Source: Cellulomonas sp. WB94
GTDB taxonomy: Bacteria > Actinomycetota > Actinomycetes > Actinomycetales > Cellulomonadaceae
Direction of reading: 5' to 3'
Length of the DNA: 64,000 bases
Assembly: GCF_003115775.1 (NCBI RefSeq)
Contig: NZ_QEES01000002.1
Location: forward strand, 1,550,001-1,614,000
Shown: positions 12,843 to 16,959 of the stretch, one piece after another
Numbering within the stretch: the first letter of the stretch is position 1
How the letters are laid out: every line of letters begins with the position of its first letter
The notes under the pieces: model-generated
The model's database searches: none
Seen by the model: the letters and a program-made list of their open reading frames with translations, nothing else
What the model was told of the DNA's origin: nothing
Program-made: the position numbers and the translations under genes

Positions 12843-12857
12843 TACCCCCCAGGGGTA
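12843..12857. promoter_or_regulatory. CsoR operator
   Basis: TACCCCCCAGGGGTA, an interrupted palindrome with C4-6/G4 arms, matches the known CsoR operator pattern (TACCCC..GGGGTA). It lies 57 bp upstream of the csoR start, between csoR and the divergent M6 protease operon. Confidence 0.85.
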
Positions 12858-12979: not shown

Positions 12980-14893
12980 ATGAGGGACGACGTCATGACG
13001 TTCGGGACCCAGGACCAGCGCACCCAGACGTGCACGGTCCCGCCGAGCCCGGAGCTGCGAGACAAGTGGCGCAAGGACCTTGCGTCCGTCAACAAGAGTC
13101 GCGACGCCGCACCGGCGCTGCGGCTCGCCCGCGAACCGCACCCGCTGGGCTTCAACGACGGCGTCATCGTGCCGCCGGAGGAGTTCCCCGCGGGCACCCC
13201 GTTCGCGGCGATCCGGGCGACGGCCGCCGACCGTGCGCCCCTGCGCGGAACGGTGAACGTGGCGGTCGTCCTCGTGGACTTCTCGGACAAGACGATGACG
13301 GCCACCACCGCGCACTTCGACGAGCTGTTCTTCTCGACGGGCGCCCTCCCGCACGGGAGCGTCAAGGAGTACTACTCCGAGGTCACGAACGGCCTCGTCA
13401 CGCTCGCAGGCACGGTCGTCGGGCCGTATCGGATGCCGCACACGCTCGCGTGGTACGCGAACAACGGCTCCGGGATCGGTCTGAACGGCACCGCGTTCCG
13501 CTCCCCGCAGCTCGCGCTCGACGCCGCCAACGCCGCGAACGCGGCCGTGGACTTCACGCCGTACGACAACGACGGCAACGGGTTCGTGGACGCGTTCATC
13601 GTGGTCCACGCCGGGCAGGGCGCCGAGGTCACGGGCTCGAAGGGCGACATCTGGTCGCACAAGTCGGTCCTCGCGAGCGCGCTCGCCGTCGACAGCACCA
13701 AGATCTACGGCTACCTGACGATCCCCGAGGACGCCAAGATCGGCGTCAGCGCGCATGAGCTCGGCCACCTGCTGTTCGGCTTCCCCGACCTGTACGACAC
13801 GGACTACTCGTCCGAGGGCATCGGCAACTGGTGCCTCATGTCGGGCGGCTCGTGGAACGGCGGCGGCGCGCAGCCCGCGCACCCGAGCGCCTGGTGCAAG
13901 GTCAACCAGGGGTGGGTCACGACGACGGTGGTCACGACCAACGGCACCCTGACGATCCCGGCGGTCGAGTCGTCGCACACCGTGTTCCGGCTGTGGAAGG
14001 ACGGCGCAAGCGGTTCCGAGTACTTCCTGCTCGAGAACCGTCAGCCGATCGGCTACGACGCCGCACTGCCCGGCCCGGGCGCGCTGCTCTGGCACATCGA
14101 CGAGACCCAGCCCGGCAACACCGACGAGAACCACTACAAGGTGGCGCTCATCCAGGCCGACGGGAAGCGGGACCTCGAGCTCGACCACAACCGCGGCGAC
14201 GCGGGCGACCCGTTCCCCGGCTCGGCCACCGTCGTCACGATCGACGGCACGACGACGCCCGGCACCAAGTCCTACGCGGGCGCCGACACGTGCGTCGCGC
14301 TCTCCTCCATCTCGCCGTCGGGCGCGGTCATGACCGCGAACGTCCGCGTGACCTGCAAGTCGGTCCTCAAGGACCTCAAGGACGCGCGCAAGGAGCTGAA
14401 GAAGGACAGCCTCAAGGACCAGCGCAAGGAGATCCGCAAGGAGGTCTTCAAGGAGGTCAAGGAGTTCCGCAAGGACACCGTGAAGGACGTCAAGGAGGCC
14501 TTCAAGGACATCAAGGACCAGCGTGAGTACAAGAACGTCGTCGAGTGGCCGGGCTGGAACCGGCCCGGTGGTGGCGGTGACCCGCTCGGCGGAGGCGCCG
14601 GCGGTGGCGGGTTCGGGGGTGGCGGGTTCGGTGGCAGCCCGGCGCAGGGGTCTGCCCTCGAGGACCGCCTCGCGGCGCTCGAGTCCGTCGTCTACGGCGA
14701 GTCCGAGGCCGGCGGCGACTACGGCGCCGGCGGTGGCGGCGCGGACGCCGGCACCGGACCGTTCATCGACCAGACGCTGCGACCGGACCTGATCGGTGCG
14801 CCGGGTGCGGCGACCGGCGACGCCGAGCTCGCGGCCCGGATGGCCGAGGGCGACCCGACCGCGAAGCACGAGTTCGACACCCCGGTGCGGTAG
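12980..14893 (+). CDS. M6-family metalloprotease with Lys/Asp/Glu-rich tail
   Basis: 637 residues. The M6 (immune inhibitor A-like) core spans about 80-455 with the zinc site H259-E260-x-x-H263 inside SAHELGHLLFGFPDLYD and the Met-turn-like CLMSGGSW. A highly charged helical segment follows (about 459-516), built from K-D/E repeats such as KDLKDARKELKKDS, then a Gly-rich linker and an ordered-looking end (LEDRLAALESVVYG, PFIDQTLRPDLIGAPG). There is no signal peptide, although M6 enzymes are usually secreted. It heads a four-gene operon, with the next ATG 3 bp after its stop. The start ATG 12980 has GGAGAGG upstream. The tail could be a substrate of the neighbouring ATP-grasp ligase; that is inference. 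Confidence 0.85.
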   Translation: MRDDVMTFGTQDQRTQTCTVPPSPELRDKWRKDLASVNKSRDAAPALRLAREPHPLGFNDGVIVPPEEFPAGTPFAAIRATAADRAPLRGTVNVAVVLVDFSDKTMTATTAHFDELFFSTGALPHGSVKEYYSEVTNGLVTLAGTVVGPYRMPHTLAWYANNGSGIGLNGTAFRSPQLALDAANAANAAVDFTPYDNDGNGFVDAFIVVHAGQGAEVTGSKGDIWSHKSVLASALAVDSTKIYGYLTIPEDAKIGVSAHELGHLLFGFPDLYDTDYSSEGIGNWCLMSGGSWNGGGAQPAHPSAWCKVNQGWVTTTVVTTNGTLTIPAVESSHTVFRLWKDGASGSEYFLLENRQPIGYDAALPGPGALLWHIDETQPGNTDENHYKVALIQADGKRDLELDHNRGDAGDPFPGSATVVTIDGTTTPGTKSYAGADTCVALSSISPSGAVMTANVRVTCKSVLKDLKDARKELKKDSLKDQRKEIRKEVFKEVKEFRKDTVKDVKEAFKDIKDQREYKNVVEWPGWNRPGGGGDPLGGGAGGGGFGGGGFGGSPAQGSALEDRLAALESVVYGESEAGGDYGAGGGGADAGTGPFIDQTLRPDLIGAPGAATGDAELAARMAEGDPTAKHEFDTPVR

Positions 14894-14896
14894 GAG

Positions 14897-15658
14897 ATGA
14901 CCGCGTCCGTCGTGCTCGTCGTGGCCGACGCCGCGGACCTCGGGGCTCGGGCGGCGGCGCGCGTCGCCGCCCGGGCCCGCCCCGAGGTCGACGTGCGCTG
15001 GGTGCCCGGCTACGCGTGGGACCGCACGCGCTGGACCCACCGGGTCACGTCCACGGGCCGGGCCTCGACCCGGCTCACCTTCCCGGCAGGGTTCGGCGAG
15101 CCCGTGGACGACGACGACCTCGCGCTCGTCTGGTTCCGGACCGCGACGAGCGTGCCGTCGGCGCTGCGAGGTGCCTCGGCGGCGGACCGCGACTACGCAG
15201 CCGCGGAGACCCAGGCGCTCGCGGTCAGCTGGCTCGCCGCGCTCGGTGACCGGGTGGTCAACGCGGTGACCGGCGACGGACCGACGGGGCCGGCCTGGTC
15301 GGGTGCGCGGTGGCGGGCCGAGGCGAGCACGGCCGGCCTGCGCGTGACCGACGGGGTCGCCGCGACGTCCGCGCGGCTCGTGCCGGGATGGTCGGGCAGC
15401 GCGTGGGACGCACGTCGTCCGCACGACACCACGCCCGAGGTCGTCCGGCGAGTGCTCGTGGCCGGACGGCGGGCTGTCGGCGCGTCGGGAGTCGCCGAGG
15501 CGCGGGGCTGCTGCGCGCTCGCCGAGGCGGCCCGCTGCCGCATCCTGTCCGTCGGGTTCGACGCCGCGGGCGGGGTCGTGGACGCCCAGCCACTCGCCCC
15601 GGTCATCAGCCCCGACGAGATCGCGCTCGCGGGCACGTTCCTCGCGGAGGTGGCGTGA
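14897..15658 (+). CDS. ATP-grasp-like partner protein, degenerate
   Basis: 253 residues, soluble. The N-terminal half resembles the pre-ATP-grasp domain of peptide-modifying ligases: LALVWFRTATSVPS, then a segment with repeated Ala/Glu and ALAVSWLAALGDRVVNAVTGDGPTG, then a putative K-less ARWRAEASTAGLRVTDG where a true ligase has SNK..QL..A...G. The central nucleotide-binding strands seem to be missing, but the end (ILSVGFDAAGGVVDAQPLAPV) again looks like an ATP-grasp C-terminal strand. It may be a catalytically dead subunit or recognition partner. It starts 3 bp after the protease and overlaps the ATP-grasp gene by 1 bp. I know no name for this family. Confidence 0.6.
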   Translation: MTASVVLVVADAADLGARAAARVAARARPEVDVRWVPGYAWDRTRWTHRVTSTGRASTRLTFPAGFGEPVDDDDLALVWFRTATSVPSALRGASAADRDYAAAETQALAVSWLAALGDRVVNAVTGDGPTGPAWSGARWRAEASTAGLRVTDGVAATSARLVPGWSGSAWDARRPHDTTPEVVRRVLVAGRRAVGASGVAEARGCCALAEAARCRILSVGFDAAGGVVDAQPLAPVISPDEIALAGTFLAEVA

Positions 15659-16554
15659 TGATCCTGGTCATCGGGTACGGGGACGACCCGGCCGTGCGTC
15701 GCGTCGTCGAGGCGGCGGGGGACCTCGGTGTCGAGCACGTGCTCGTCGACCAGCAGTCCCACCCGGTCGCGGACCTGCGCCTCGATGCCGACGGCAGCGG
15801 CTTCCTCGAGAGCGGTGGCGCGCGCACGCTGCTCGGGGACGTGGACGGGGTCTACGCGAGGCCGCTCTCCCCGGTCCCCGGCACGGACCCGCGCGAGAGC
15901 GAGCGCGGCCGCCTGCTCGTCGAGCTGCTGCTCGGCTGGATGGACGTGGCCCCGTGCCGGGTCGCGTCGCGCCCGTCGGCGATGCACTCGAACGCCTCGA
16001 AGCCGTACCAGGCGCAGCTCATCGCGGCCGCGGGGTTCGCCGTCCCCGAGACGATCGTCACCGACGACCCCGACGAGGTCCGGGCGTTCGCCGCGGCGCA
16101 GGGGGCCGTGGTGTTCAAGTCGATCTCGGGGATCCGGTCGATCGTCCGGGTGCTCGAGGGGTCGGCGCTCGGCCGGCTCGAACGCGTCCGGTCGCTGCCG
16201 ACCCAGTTCCAGGCGCTCGTGCCCGGGACGGACGTGCGGGTGCACGTCGTCGGCCACGAGGTCTTCGCGACCGAGATCGGGTCCGACGCGGTCGACTACC
16301 GGTACGCGGGTCGCGACGGGCTGACTGCCGCGCTCACGGCCACGACCCTGCCCGACGAGATCGCCGACCGTTGCGTCCGCCTCGCCGCGACGCTCGAGCT
16401 CCCGCTCGCGGGCATCGACCTGCGCCGCACCCCGGTGGGGGACTGGGTCTGCTTCGAGGTCAACCCCATGCCGGGCTACAGTTTTTACGAGTCGCACACG
16501 GGGCAGCCCATCGCGGCAGCGCTGGTGCGTCACCTCGCCGGGAAGGCGGACTGA
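15658..16554 (+). CDS. ATP-grasp ligase (RimK/graspetide-ligase-like)
   Basis: 298 residues. An N-terminal Rossmann-like lobe (MILVIGYGDDPAVRRVVEAA) leads to the ATP-grasp fold: SNASKPYQAQLIAAAGFAVPETIVT (first part of the A-subdomain), VVFKSISGIRS with the nucleotide-contact Lys and glycine loop, an adenine-binding strand FQALVPGTDVRVHV, and the metal-binding end LAGIDLRR...CFEVNPMPGY with the E-x-N pair. This order matches RimK-type carboxylate-amine ligases and the MvdC/MvdD enzymes that cross-link Lys, Asp and Glu in peptides. The ATG overlaps the preceding stop (TGATG). The natural substrate could be the charged tail of the operon's protease; this is not shown. Confidence 0.8.
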   Translation: MILVIGYGDDPAVRRVVEAAGDLGVEHVLVDQQSHPVADLRLDADGSGFLESGGARTLLGDVDGVYARPLSPVPGTDPRESERGRLLVELLLGWMDVAPCRVASRPSAMHSNASKPYQAQLIAAAGFAVPETIVTDDPDEVRAFAAAQGAVVFKSISGIRSIVRVLEGSALGRLERVRSLPTQFQALVPGTDVRVHVVGHEVFATEIGSDAVDYRYAGRDGLTAALTATTLPDEIADRCVRLAATLELPLAGIDLRRTPVGDWVCFEVNPMPGYSFYESHTGQPIAAALVRHLAGKAD

Positions 16555-16557
16555 ACC

Positions 16558-16959
16558 ATGGTCGCTGTGAGGGAGAACCGCACCGAGATCGACGGTGTCG
16601 TGCAGTCGGTGTCGTCGGTCGGGGACGACGACAGCCGCCTCGAGCTCGTCGTCCAGGTCAGGCGCTCGGGGCCGGTCGAGGGGTACCCCGACATGCTGAC
16701 GGCCAACCAGCCGGCCGAGGAGCCGTGGGTCCTGCTGGTGCACCGCGACGAGCTGCCCGCCGAGGACCTCACGGGGTGGCGCGTGCACGGCTGCGCCGCG
16801 ATGGCGGGACCGGGGGTGCTCCGGCTCGTCACGACCGACCCGGCGCCCGAGCTCGAGCCGCCGGAGGGGGACCCCGGCGACCACGATCCGCCCGGCCGCC
16901 CACCGCAGGACCGGAGGCGGCCGGACGACGAGCCGCCCCGGCCGCTCATCGAGCTCTGA
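16558..16959 (+). CDS. Orphan protein, last gene of the protease/ATP-grasp operon
   Basis: 133 residues. The first 95 form a predicted beta-rich domain (TEIDGVVQSVSSVGDDDSRL, then VVQVRRSG, then PWVLLVHRDELPAEDLTG, then HGCAAMAGPGVLRLVTT), reminiscent of an OB-like barrel. The last 40 are Pro/Asp/Arg-rich and probably disordered. No signal peptide, helix or known motif. It begins 3 bp after the ATP-grasp stop, so it is almost surely co-expressed. Function unknown. Confidence 0.65.
   Translation: MVAVRENRTEIDGVVQSVSSVGDDDSRLELVVQVRRSGPVEGYPDMLTANQPAEEPWVLLVHRDELPAEDLTGWRVHGCAAMAGPGVLRLVTTDPAPELEPPEGDPGDHDPPGRPPQDRRRPDDEPPRPLIEL

Follow-up and report, generated by a model that had tools for sequence, protein, structure and literature searches.

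The locus analyzed here raises the question of whether the lysine- and acid-rich tail of a metalloprotease is the substrate of an ATP-grasp ligase encoded in the same operon. The window, a stretch of 64,000 nucleotides from Cellulomonas sp. WB94, contains four genes, all on the plus strand and separated by 3, -1 and 3 bp: the carrier, a 637-aa M6-family metalloprotease with a C-terminal tail (12980..14893); gene 2, a predicted degenerate ATP-grasp (pseudo-ligase) partner of 253 aa (14897..15658); gene 3, a graspetide-type ATP-grasp ligase of 298 aa (15658..16554); and gene 4, which encodes a protein of 133 aa (16558..16959). The intergenic gaps of the operon in the window are too small to accommodate a separate precursor gene, and none of the four proteins matches the anti-phage defence profiles of PADLOC 2.0.0 at E<=0.01.

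The carrier shows the two features of an M6 peptidase, namely the M6 domain (TIGR03296, 2.8e-74, above the cut-off; PF05547, 8.2e-25 in the profile scans) and an intact HExxH zinc site (HELGH, 13754-13768, + strand). Its tail consists, in this order, of a Lys-Asp/Glu tract (residues 464-518, 14369..14533, +), which is the proposed cross-linked region, a Gly-rich stretch, and the sequence FIDQTLRPDL (residues 595-604, 14762..14791, +), the proposed C-terminal recognition site, or 'follower'. Within the tract, 14 of the 16 lysines are followed and none is preceded by Asp or Glu, and the K-acid units are spaced 3 or 4 residues apart (mean 3.69). An earlier note on this DNA had described four genes with the same gaps, which is borne out on the coordinates, and a protease lacking a signal peptide but equipped with a ~58-residue K/D/E segment, a Gly-rich linker and an ordered end; all these parts are present, with the tract comprising 55 residues by our own scoring, and no hydrophobic run is seen by eye in residues 1-32.

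Gene 3 is most similar to the graspetide macrocyclases in both sequence and fold. Its NCBIfam matches (TIGR04187, 3.9e-37; MvdD, 1.5e-20; MvdC, 1.3e-19; rimK_fam, 1.4e-14) are all below the respective cut-offs, including those of the three graspetide NCBIfam models (128.1 of 350 bits for TIGR04187, 73.6 of 475 for TIGR04184, and 70.5 of 425 for TIGR04185). Nevertheless, gene 3 shares with the graspetide synthetases PsnB, MdnB, MdnC, CdnC, PruB and AMdnB the ATP-grasp fold, the MvdD-like N-terminal domain and the ATP/metal residues, and thus has the fold-level features of a graspetide synthetase. In the structure search, PsnB ranked first (TM 0.80) and matches 1 to 31 were graspetide-type ligases, followed by RimK as the 32nd; sequence searches gave the same order (PsnB, 6.7e-41; MdnC, 4.7e-32; RimK, 1.8e-12). 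Seven residues, K115, K154, Q185, R194, D254, E267 and N269, to which we presume ATP- and metal-binding roles, are invariant in 11 relatives. The complete ATP-grasp motifs and the graspetide-ligase affinity initially assigned to this protein both hold. We class gene 3 as a graspetide-type ATP-grasp ligase with PsnB as the nearest solved structure.

Given that the protein also exceeds the cut-off of the Pfam RimK domain (PF08443, 31.9 bits versus 21), that RimK, LysX and ArgX are its next nearest folds, and that an end of the form K-x-E/Q-F-D-T beyond the tail motif is kept in the three tailed M6 carriers, a RimK-like reaction has to be considered, in which free amino acids or a small amine would be added, in a manner resembling glutamylation, to tail Asp/Glu residues or to the C-terminus without cross-links. 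This appears unlikely because graspetide macrocyclases outrank the RimK group in sequence and fold, N-terminal domain included, whereas the sequence match to RimK, LysX and ArgX covers only the second half; furthermore, the cut-off of the RimK family alpha-L-glutamate ligase model is missed (TIGR00768, 54.1 versus 143.4 bits), and such a reaction would not need a Lys-dense tract.

For gene 2, there is no Pfam or NCBIfam match at E<=1. All 22 PDB matches of its predicted structure at E<=0.001 are graspetide-type ATP-grasp ligases, with TM scores of only 0.40-0.53, a modest model (pLDDT 65.3), and short or weak profile matches. As judged from the model and the profiles, gene 2 represents a degenerate version of the ATP-grasp fold seen in gene 3, in agreement with the decayed ATP-grasp proposed from the sequence. 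The two proteins diverge together (Mantel r 0.95, p 0.0002, 13 loci). Among 198 genomes of the order, the gene 2 query retrieved itself and a single chance-like match (3.8e-4, with internal stops).

The ligase clade was sampled in 15 genomes (the window and sets of 7, 5 and 2) that span Cellulomonadaceae, other Actinomycetota, Roseobacteraceae, Variovorax and others. A full-length gene 2 is present in 14 of these, and a carrier with the tail motif adjoins the ligase in 14 of the 15, upstream in 13 cases and downstream in one (L097). The exception, L023, has the ligase, no tail anywhere in the genome, and, of gene 2, just a C-terminal fragment. The carriers are of seven kinds, namely M6, S8, S1 (trypsin), kelch, DUF6519, PQQ-like and spherulin-4-like, of which the first five exceed a Pfam cut-off and the last two remain below; family scans cover seven of the 14 carriers and the other seven were assigned by visible similarity. 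When a tail profile was compared with 13 of the genomes that carry the ligase clade, the best match was the operon carrier in 12 (E 1.4e-30 to 6.6e-4) and none was obtained in the remaining one (G419), with weaker matches starting at E 0.04. Beyond this clade, the motif is absent from 17 ATP-grasp loci in 15 genomes or records (L011-L014, L018-L022, L025, L089-L094 and L098), mostly inspected over ~1.4 kb on each side and, for L098, by motif and tract scans only. It is also absent from the four regions examined around plasmid relatives of the ligase (59 and 51 records). One plasmid search with the tail gave a single match at E 10 (S. fredii, unrelated frames) and another gave none; the phage search yielded 10 records at E 8, and no ligase was confirmed in viral contigs.

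The common element of the tails is F-I-x4-R-P-x-[LV], which replaces the guide motif PFxxRF that the earlier note had suggested by analogy and which occurs once in each of the 14 carriers. It was derived from most of the carriers in which it is counted, the two found afterwards being L096 and L097, both of which contain it; an earlier form with [DEA] at the ninth place would miss L096. Its occurrence exceeds chance: the motif appeared in 10 of 30,000 shuffled sequences (2,000 per protein for 15 proteins, one of them a tail-less control), and among the 1,673 distinct stop-to-stop frames of at least 150 aa in all DNA examined it is restricted to carrier frames (35 matches, with overlapping loci counted repeatedly). 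The window tail reads PFID; the proline preceding FI is not conserved among the S8, S1, kelch and DUF6519 carriers. The leader motif of graspetides has the form Phhx(1,2)h (PMC8939145).

The charged tract is found in 13 of the 14 motif-bearing carriers and varies from 10 to 92 residues, the short cases being L009 and L010 (10 residues) and L033 (22). In 11 tracts, 157 K-[DE] pairs were observed versus 71.4 expected from shuffles and a single KK versus 62.3, where related tracts are counted as independent. The one-way order of lysine followed by acid is not significant in six of the 13 tracts (L007, L008, L009, L010, L030 and L097). The carrier without a tract, L029, retains the motif and apparently lacks the second half of its S8 domain, which seems to reflect a deletion or an assembly fault. 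Taken together, the invariance of the motif, the variation of the tract and its absence from L029 would suit a tail that merely recruits the ligase pair, with the real substrate being a protein met by the carrier or a peptide encoded elsewhere. We regard this as another unlikely scenario given that the Lys-acid tract precedes the motif in nearly all carriers regardless of their kind and that the small intergenic gaps (-13 to 74 bp in nine loci measured) leave little space for a precursor.

A comparison within the family shows which of the four genes belong together. Among 150 genomes there are four strong M6 orthologues, three with both the tail and the ligase and one with neither; thus, an M6 protease with the same tail and without the ligase, which would speak against the proposed connection, does not occur among these four. 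In the fourth genome (G060), the M6 protease (74% identity over the catalytic part) is present without the tail, gene 2 or gene 3, and no ligase was found in the genome at E<=1e-20, so that the tail tracks the ligase, as the link drawn between them at the outset implied, and not the protease. The stop codon of this tail-less M6 gene is followed, after 2 bp, by a gene homologous to gene 4 (55% identity over 102 aa). Given that gene 4 is retained where the other three elements (tail, gene 2, gene 3) are missing, these three behave as one cassette, whereas gene 4, which has no Pfam or NCBIfam match, goes with the protease because its homologue directly follows a tail-less M6 gene. Gene 4 was therefore rejected as a component of the ligase system, and the notion in the earlier note of one system of four genes gives way to one in which M6 is only one of seven carrier kinds. 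In G1595, a 105-aa ORF occupies the place of gene 4, with a BLAST match to it at only E 0.46. The motif is absent from 16 loci (L070-L085) of 28 genomes with weaker M6-domain matches (8e-16 to 5e-9).

Charged helices are common in nature, and KEKE association motifs are likewise runs of Lys and Glu/Asp. Accordingly, the tract might simply be a KEKE-type helical stalk or a coiled coil, with the ATP-grasp pair making an unrelated small molecule as a mere neighbor; the spacing of K[DE] units in the M6 carriers, mostly 3 or 4 as along one helix face, fits such a structure. Unlike KEKE motifs, the tract comes with a fixed end motif and a ligase pair, and because the tail, gene 2 and gene 3 recur jointly on several unrelated carriers and vanish jointly in G060, a chance neighborhood appears highly improbable.

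Because the combination of tail and gene pair is found with unrelated enzymes in distantly related bacteria, the pair probably modifies the tail. The most plausible reading, to which we assign a probability of roughly 0.5, is that the tail, gene 2 and gene 3 constitute a transferable protein-tail modification cassette that introduces isopeptide links guided by the C-terminal motif; the cassette itself is supported by genome comparison, and the chemistry is inferred. Under this scenario, gene 2 and gene 3 would work as a complex that binds the C-terminal motif in the same way as the N-terminal leader is bound by graspetide synthetases; gene 3 would use ATP to phosphorylate Asp/Glu side chains in the tract, and neighboring Lys amines would attack the activated acids to yield isopeptide bonds (-18 Da each), within one tail or between the tails of associated chains, while the folded enzyme would remain attached as cargo. 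The linked tail could serve as a stiff stalk, a protease-proof anchor, a covalent oligomer, or an export or packaging mark. A broader and clearly more speculative version, which we consider rather doubtful, is a general, horizontally moving 'tail-stapling' system, in which an active and a dead ATP-grasp ligase would turn a C-terminal Lys-acid helix of any enzyme into a covalently laddered or inter-chain cross-linked stalk, with a natural C-terminal motif as guide, freely swapped warheads, and at least one lineage in an injection-particle locus.

Graspetide synthetases act on small peptides, and their natural precursors, in the sources consulted, are stand-alone peptides or small proteins with an N-terminal recognition part. 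Here, in contrast, a whole enzyme bears the candidate substrate as its tail, the candidate recognition motif is C-terminal to the candidate core, and a pseudo-ligase partner adjoins 14 of the 15 ligases; from these comparisons, enzymes of the same type appear to modify the tails of complete enzymes with C-terminal-side recognition and a dead paralogue as partner. Parallels are provided by the corallotide and rosaritide systems, in which a TIGR04187 enzyme joins Lys to Asp by isopeptide bonds at KxxxD of a large precursor (~22 kDa) and a further synthetase requires a partner protein (PMC13097080). As described there, the precursors are stand-alone proteins without an enzyme carrier, the helical part of CorA is N-terminal, and MirC, the partner, is divergent and PPIase/chaperone-like, as opposed to a degenerate ATP-grasp. 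In two engineering studies, ThfB was shown to cyclise entire proteins and to join two chains by cross-links (PMC12291112), and an engineered C-terminal leader is functional (PMC13003496); those constructs are artificial and ester-linked, whereas the arrangement here would be natural with Lys-acid links. If the proposed reading is correct, bacteria possess genetically portable covalent side-chain cross-linking of arbitrary proteins, which would offer ready parts for protein stapling and explain one type of charged tail on unrelated enzymes. A literature search suggests that the cassette is undescribed, supplementary tables aside, where it might be listed: no paper combined an M6 family metalloprotease with ATP-grasp, or eCIS with ATP-grasp, or any two of KEKE motif, ATP-grasp, DUF6519 and lysine glutamate rich tail.

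The modified tail might also be a loading or export mark by which proteins without signal peptides enter secretion machinery, such as injection particles of the phage-tail-like kind. The operon of Variovorax YR216 stands at the end of a contractile injection system locus (sheath, gp19 tube, Pvc16_N, AAA ATPase, baseplate J), the carrier of G1685 (L097) is followed by a large frame that we take to be TcA-like, and none of the carriers with a clear start shows a signal peptide by eye. This role seems improbable given that, in the window and the other loci read, no injection genes were noticed next to the cassette, with family scans of the neighbors covering Variovorax and, in part, L005 and L030. 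It concerns the use of the tail and not the chemistry, and can be compatible with the cross-linking cassette. Upstream of the operon in the window, the palindrome TACCCCCCAGGGGTA (12843..12857) lies between the M6 gene and a minus-strand gene that we take to be CsoR-like, and is a possible copper-regulator site.

The four-gene operon described in the earlier note is present in the window, in a genome of 3.87 Mb on 7 contigs: genes for an M6 protease (12980-14893), a degenerate ATP-grasp partner (gene 2; 14897-15658), an ATP-grasp ligase (gene 3; 15658-16554) and an orphan protein (gene 4; 16558-16959) are separated by gaps of 3, -1 and 3 bp. The protease matches TIGR03296 (2.8e-74) with HELGH intact and, in agreement with the note, carries a charged tail, a linker and an ordered end: a tract of 55 residues, enriched in Lys, Arg, Asp and Glu, is followed by a Gly-rich stretch and then by FIDQTLRPDL, which starts 43 residues before the C-terminus.

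Graspetide macrocyclases are the nearest relatives of gene 3 by both sequence and model comparison. A profile built from 11 relatives matches PsnB (6.7e-41) and MdnC (4.7e-32), as well as MdnB, CdnC, PruB and AMdnB, over nearly the full length, and RimK (1.8e-12) over the second half only. The top structural match of the predicted structure (mean pLDDT 81.4) is PsnB (TM 0.80); ranks 1-31 are all graspetide-type ligases and RimK holds rank 32. Gene 3 scores under the cut-offs of all three NCBIfam models TIGR04187, TIGR04184 and TIGR04185. Residues K115, K154, Q185, R194, D254, E267 and N269, invariant across the 11 relatives, are assigned to putative ATP/metal binding on the basis of the PsnB alignment and general knowledge.

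Family scans of gene 2 gave no match. Its profile (13 members) matches 3vpd (4.9e-5; named LysX in the structure library and S6 modification protein in the sequence file) and LysX 1uc8 (7.7e-5), each over about 50 positions, and PruB 9bou (0.0019) over positions 2-205 of 234, and hhalign with gene 3 yields a single short match (35 columns, probability 51%) between equivalent C-terminal strands. All 22 PDB matches of its modest model (pLDDT 65.3) at E<=0.001 are graspetide-type ATP-grasp ligases (TM 0.40-0.53). Judged by eye, the positions of D254 and E267 in the aligned stretch are unconserved among gene-2 proteins, and no counterpart of the K154-R194 stretch of gene 3 is recognizable. Given the profile, the fold matches and the sites not kept, gene 2 is taken to be a degenerate ATP-grasp, as the note had proposed in describing it as lacking the nucleotide-binding core. 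Gene 2 and gene 3 show correlated divergence (Mantel r 0.95, 13 loci), with much of the signal coming from close relatives.

A pattern-based scan of an 84,980-genome collection with P0003, which is sensitive to close relatives only, found 7 loci. Searches with an 8-row ligase profile, in which counts include the centre genome and genomes are shared between searches, gave 3 of 396 genomes in the phylum at E<1e-90 (and 5 more at 1.4e-44 to 2.2e-32). Centred on the Roseovarius genome they gave 3 of 385 at class level and 2 of 196 at order level, centred on the Variovorax genome 2 of 399 at order level, and centred on two others 1 of 3 and 1 of 1. An 11-row profile detected ligases in 24 of the 150 genomes of the window's family at E<=1e-20, 4 of them in the clade of gene 3 and the other 20 at 3.8e-50 to 8.2e-41. 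The cassette of tail, gene 2 and gene 3 is therefore rare and scattered. The clade set comprises 15 genomes (the window, L004-L010, L023, L024, L029, L030, L033, L096 and L097); outside L004 its ligases are 43-50% identical to gene 3 of the window, and the ligase of a Cellulomonas MAG, given as the same genus, is 93% identical.

In 14 of these 15 genomes a carrier, that is, a protein with the C-terminal tail, adjoins the gene 2/gene 3 pair, 13 times upstream and once downstream (L097:7965-8868, where the ligase gene is in two frames), and 14 genomes contain a full gene 2. The exception on both counts is L023 (7852-9038), which has the ligase and the last 85 residues of gene 2 with no carrier; no tail was found in that genome, and the locus looks like a decayed cassette. 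Family scans, covering 7 of the 14 carriers, identified M6 (window), S8 (L005), trypsin, Nal1-like (L024), kelch (L030) and DUF6519 (L009) above a cut-off and PQQ_2 (L033, 25.9 of 27.6 bits) and spherulin-4 (L097, E 0.011) under it; by visible similarity, L004 and L096 are M6, L006-L008 and L029 S8, and L010 DUF6519. The ligase is thus paired with a single kind of tail across unrelated proteins.

The end motif F-I-x4-R-P-x-[LV] occurs exactly once in each of the 14 carriers, in 9 of them starting 41-44 residues from the end. It was defined with most carriers already in view; both later-found carriers, L096 and L097, have it. All 35 matches among 1,673 distinct frames (at least 150 aa) of the DNA compared, with overlapping loci counted repeatedly, are carriers, compared with 10 matches in 30,000 shuffled proteins and none in 17 ATP-grasp loci (15 genomes or records) outside the clade. 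In the weakly supported ligase tree, FI-x4-RPDL and FI-x-P-x-x-RPxV carriers lie on opposite sides except for L096, the long branch of which joins L030. The charged tract spans 31-92 residues in ten carriers, 22 in L033 and 10 in L009 and L010, and is missing in L029. Across the 11 tracts of at least 15 residues, Lys is directly followed by an acid 157 times versus 71.4 expected from shuffling, and by Lys once versus 62.3. In three M6 carriers Asp/Glu follows 45 of 50 Lys and precedes none of the 50, with units mostly spaced by 3 or 4; the S8, kelch, DUF6519 and spherulin-4-like carriers show this one-way order weakly or not at all. Among 14 non-carrier tracts at the scan threshold, 13 have no K-[DE] pair and one has a single pair. 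The S8 carrier of L029 (minus strand) keeps the end motif, and its tract and the latter half of its protease domain are seemingly gone, which seems to reflect a deletion or an assembly collapse.

M6 matches occur in 32 of the 150 genomes of the window's family, as 4 strong orthologs (E<=5.5e-219) and 28 weak domain matches. The case that would have counted against the note, an M6 protease with the same tail in a genome without the ligase, does not occur among the strong orthologs: three of them, in the window, in G1595 and in G1638 (whose contig coordinates are those of L004), come with tail, gene 2 and ligase, and the fourth genome, G060, has neither tail nor ligase. The G060 protease ends in a short unrelated sequence, and an 11-row profile found no ligase in the whole genome at E<=1e-20. 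Because the window and G060 proteases are closer to each other (74% identity over the catalytic part) than either is to that of G1595 (62% and 59%), taking G1595 as the outgroup, in a comparison with no independent root, makes joint loss in G060 the simplest account. Whichever the direction, tail, gene 2 and gene 3 go together in this one case. A gene 4 homolog (55% over 102 aa, 7.8e-29) starts 2 bp past the G060 protease stop, so that gene 4, which the note had counted in a four-gene modification system, goes with the protease, again in one case.

Genome comparison thus establishes tail, gene 2 and gene 3 as a cassette at the sequence level; its docking, chemistry and purpose we infer. Besides gene 2, the tail is the sole feature common to 14 of the 15 ligases, and the operon has little intergenic room for a separate precursor, although one encoded at another site is conceivable. 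Graspetide ligases activate Asp/Glu side chains, which are attacked by Thr, Ser or Lys side chains. The tracts contain 0 to 5 Thr/Ser each, no Cys and 5 to 29 Lys, and with this Lys-rich, Thr/Ser-poor and Cys-free composition Lys would be the natural donor. In three recent papers, Lys-Asp isopeptides are described at KxxxD repeats of a ~22-kDa precursor, along with a synthetase depending on a partner protein (PMC13097080), ThfB cyclizes whole proteins and cross-links two chains (PMC12291112), and a leader still functions after being moved to the C-terminus (PMC13003496). These findings make each step plausible and underlie our proposal, to which as a whole we give a probability of about 0.5, that gene 2 and gene 3 would bind the C-terminal motif of the carrier and link Lys to Asp/Glu within the tract N-terminal to it.

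Graspetide surveys (PMC8939145, PMC13097080), in their available portions, mention large precursors and co-occurring proteases but describe no enzyme-tail precursor, degenerate ATP-grasp partner or natural C-terminal leader, and full-text searches, supplementary tables apart, found none of the three. On a Burkholderia stagnalis plasmid (L011:4067-6576), an M43-like protease frame, recognized by eye, has C-terminal T/S-D-V-H-type repeats and lies immediately upstream of an ATP-grasp gene from a different branch. No gene 2 was noticed there, and the frame is a second candidate for enzyme-fused substrate repeats.

The neighborhoods point to no single use. In Variovorax YR216 (L099:942-13751 and L009), the DUF6519 carrier, gene 2 and the ligase form the end of a contractile injection locus (sheath, gp19 tube, Pvc16_N, AAA ATPase, baseplate J), and in G1685 (L097) the frame next after the carrier is a large one that we take to be TcA-like. 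One side of the window operon is occupied by what is presumably a copper set (CsoR-like, CopZ-like and P-type ATPase genes). The perfect palindrome TACCCCCCAGGGGTA (window 12843-12857), between the CsoR-like and M6 genes, is one site read on both strands (0.12 matches expected; at least two matches in 1 of 100 shuffles) and is kept in L004 with one change; copper control of the operon through it is possible. In Roseovarius, on the opposite strand upstream of the S8 carrier, L005:1962-4688 encodes a protein in which GDSL hydrolase, trypsin-like and endonuclease/exonuclease/phosphatase domains are fused, the protease part of which is matched by PADLOC RT-protease models (9.2e-9).
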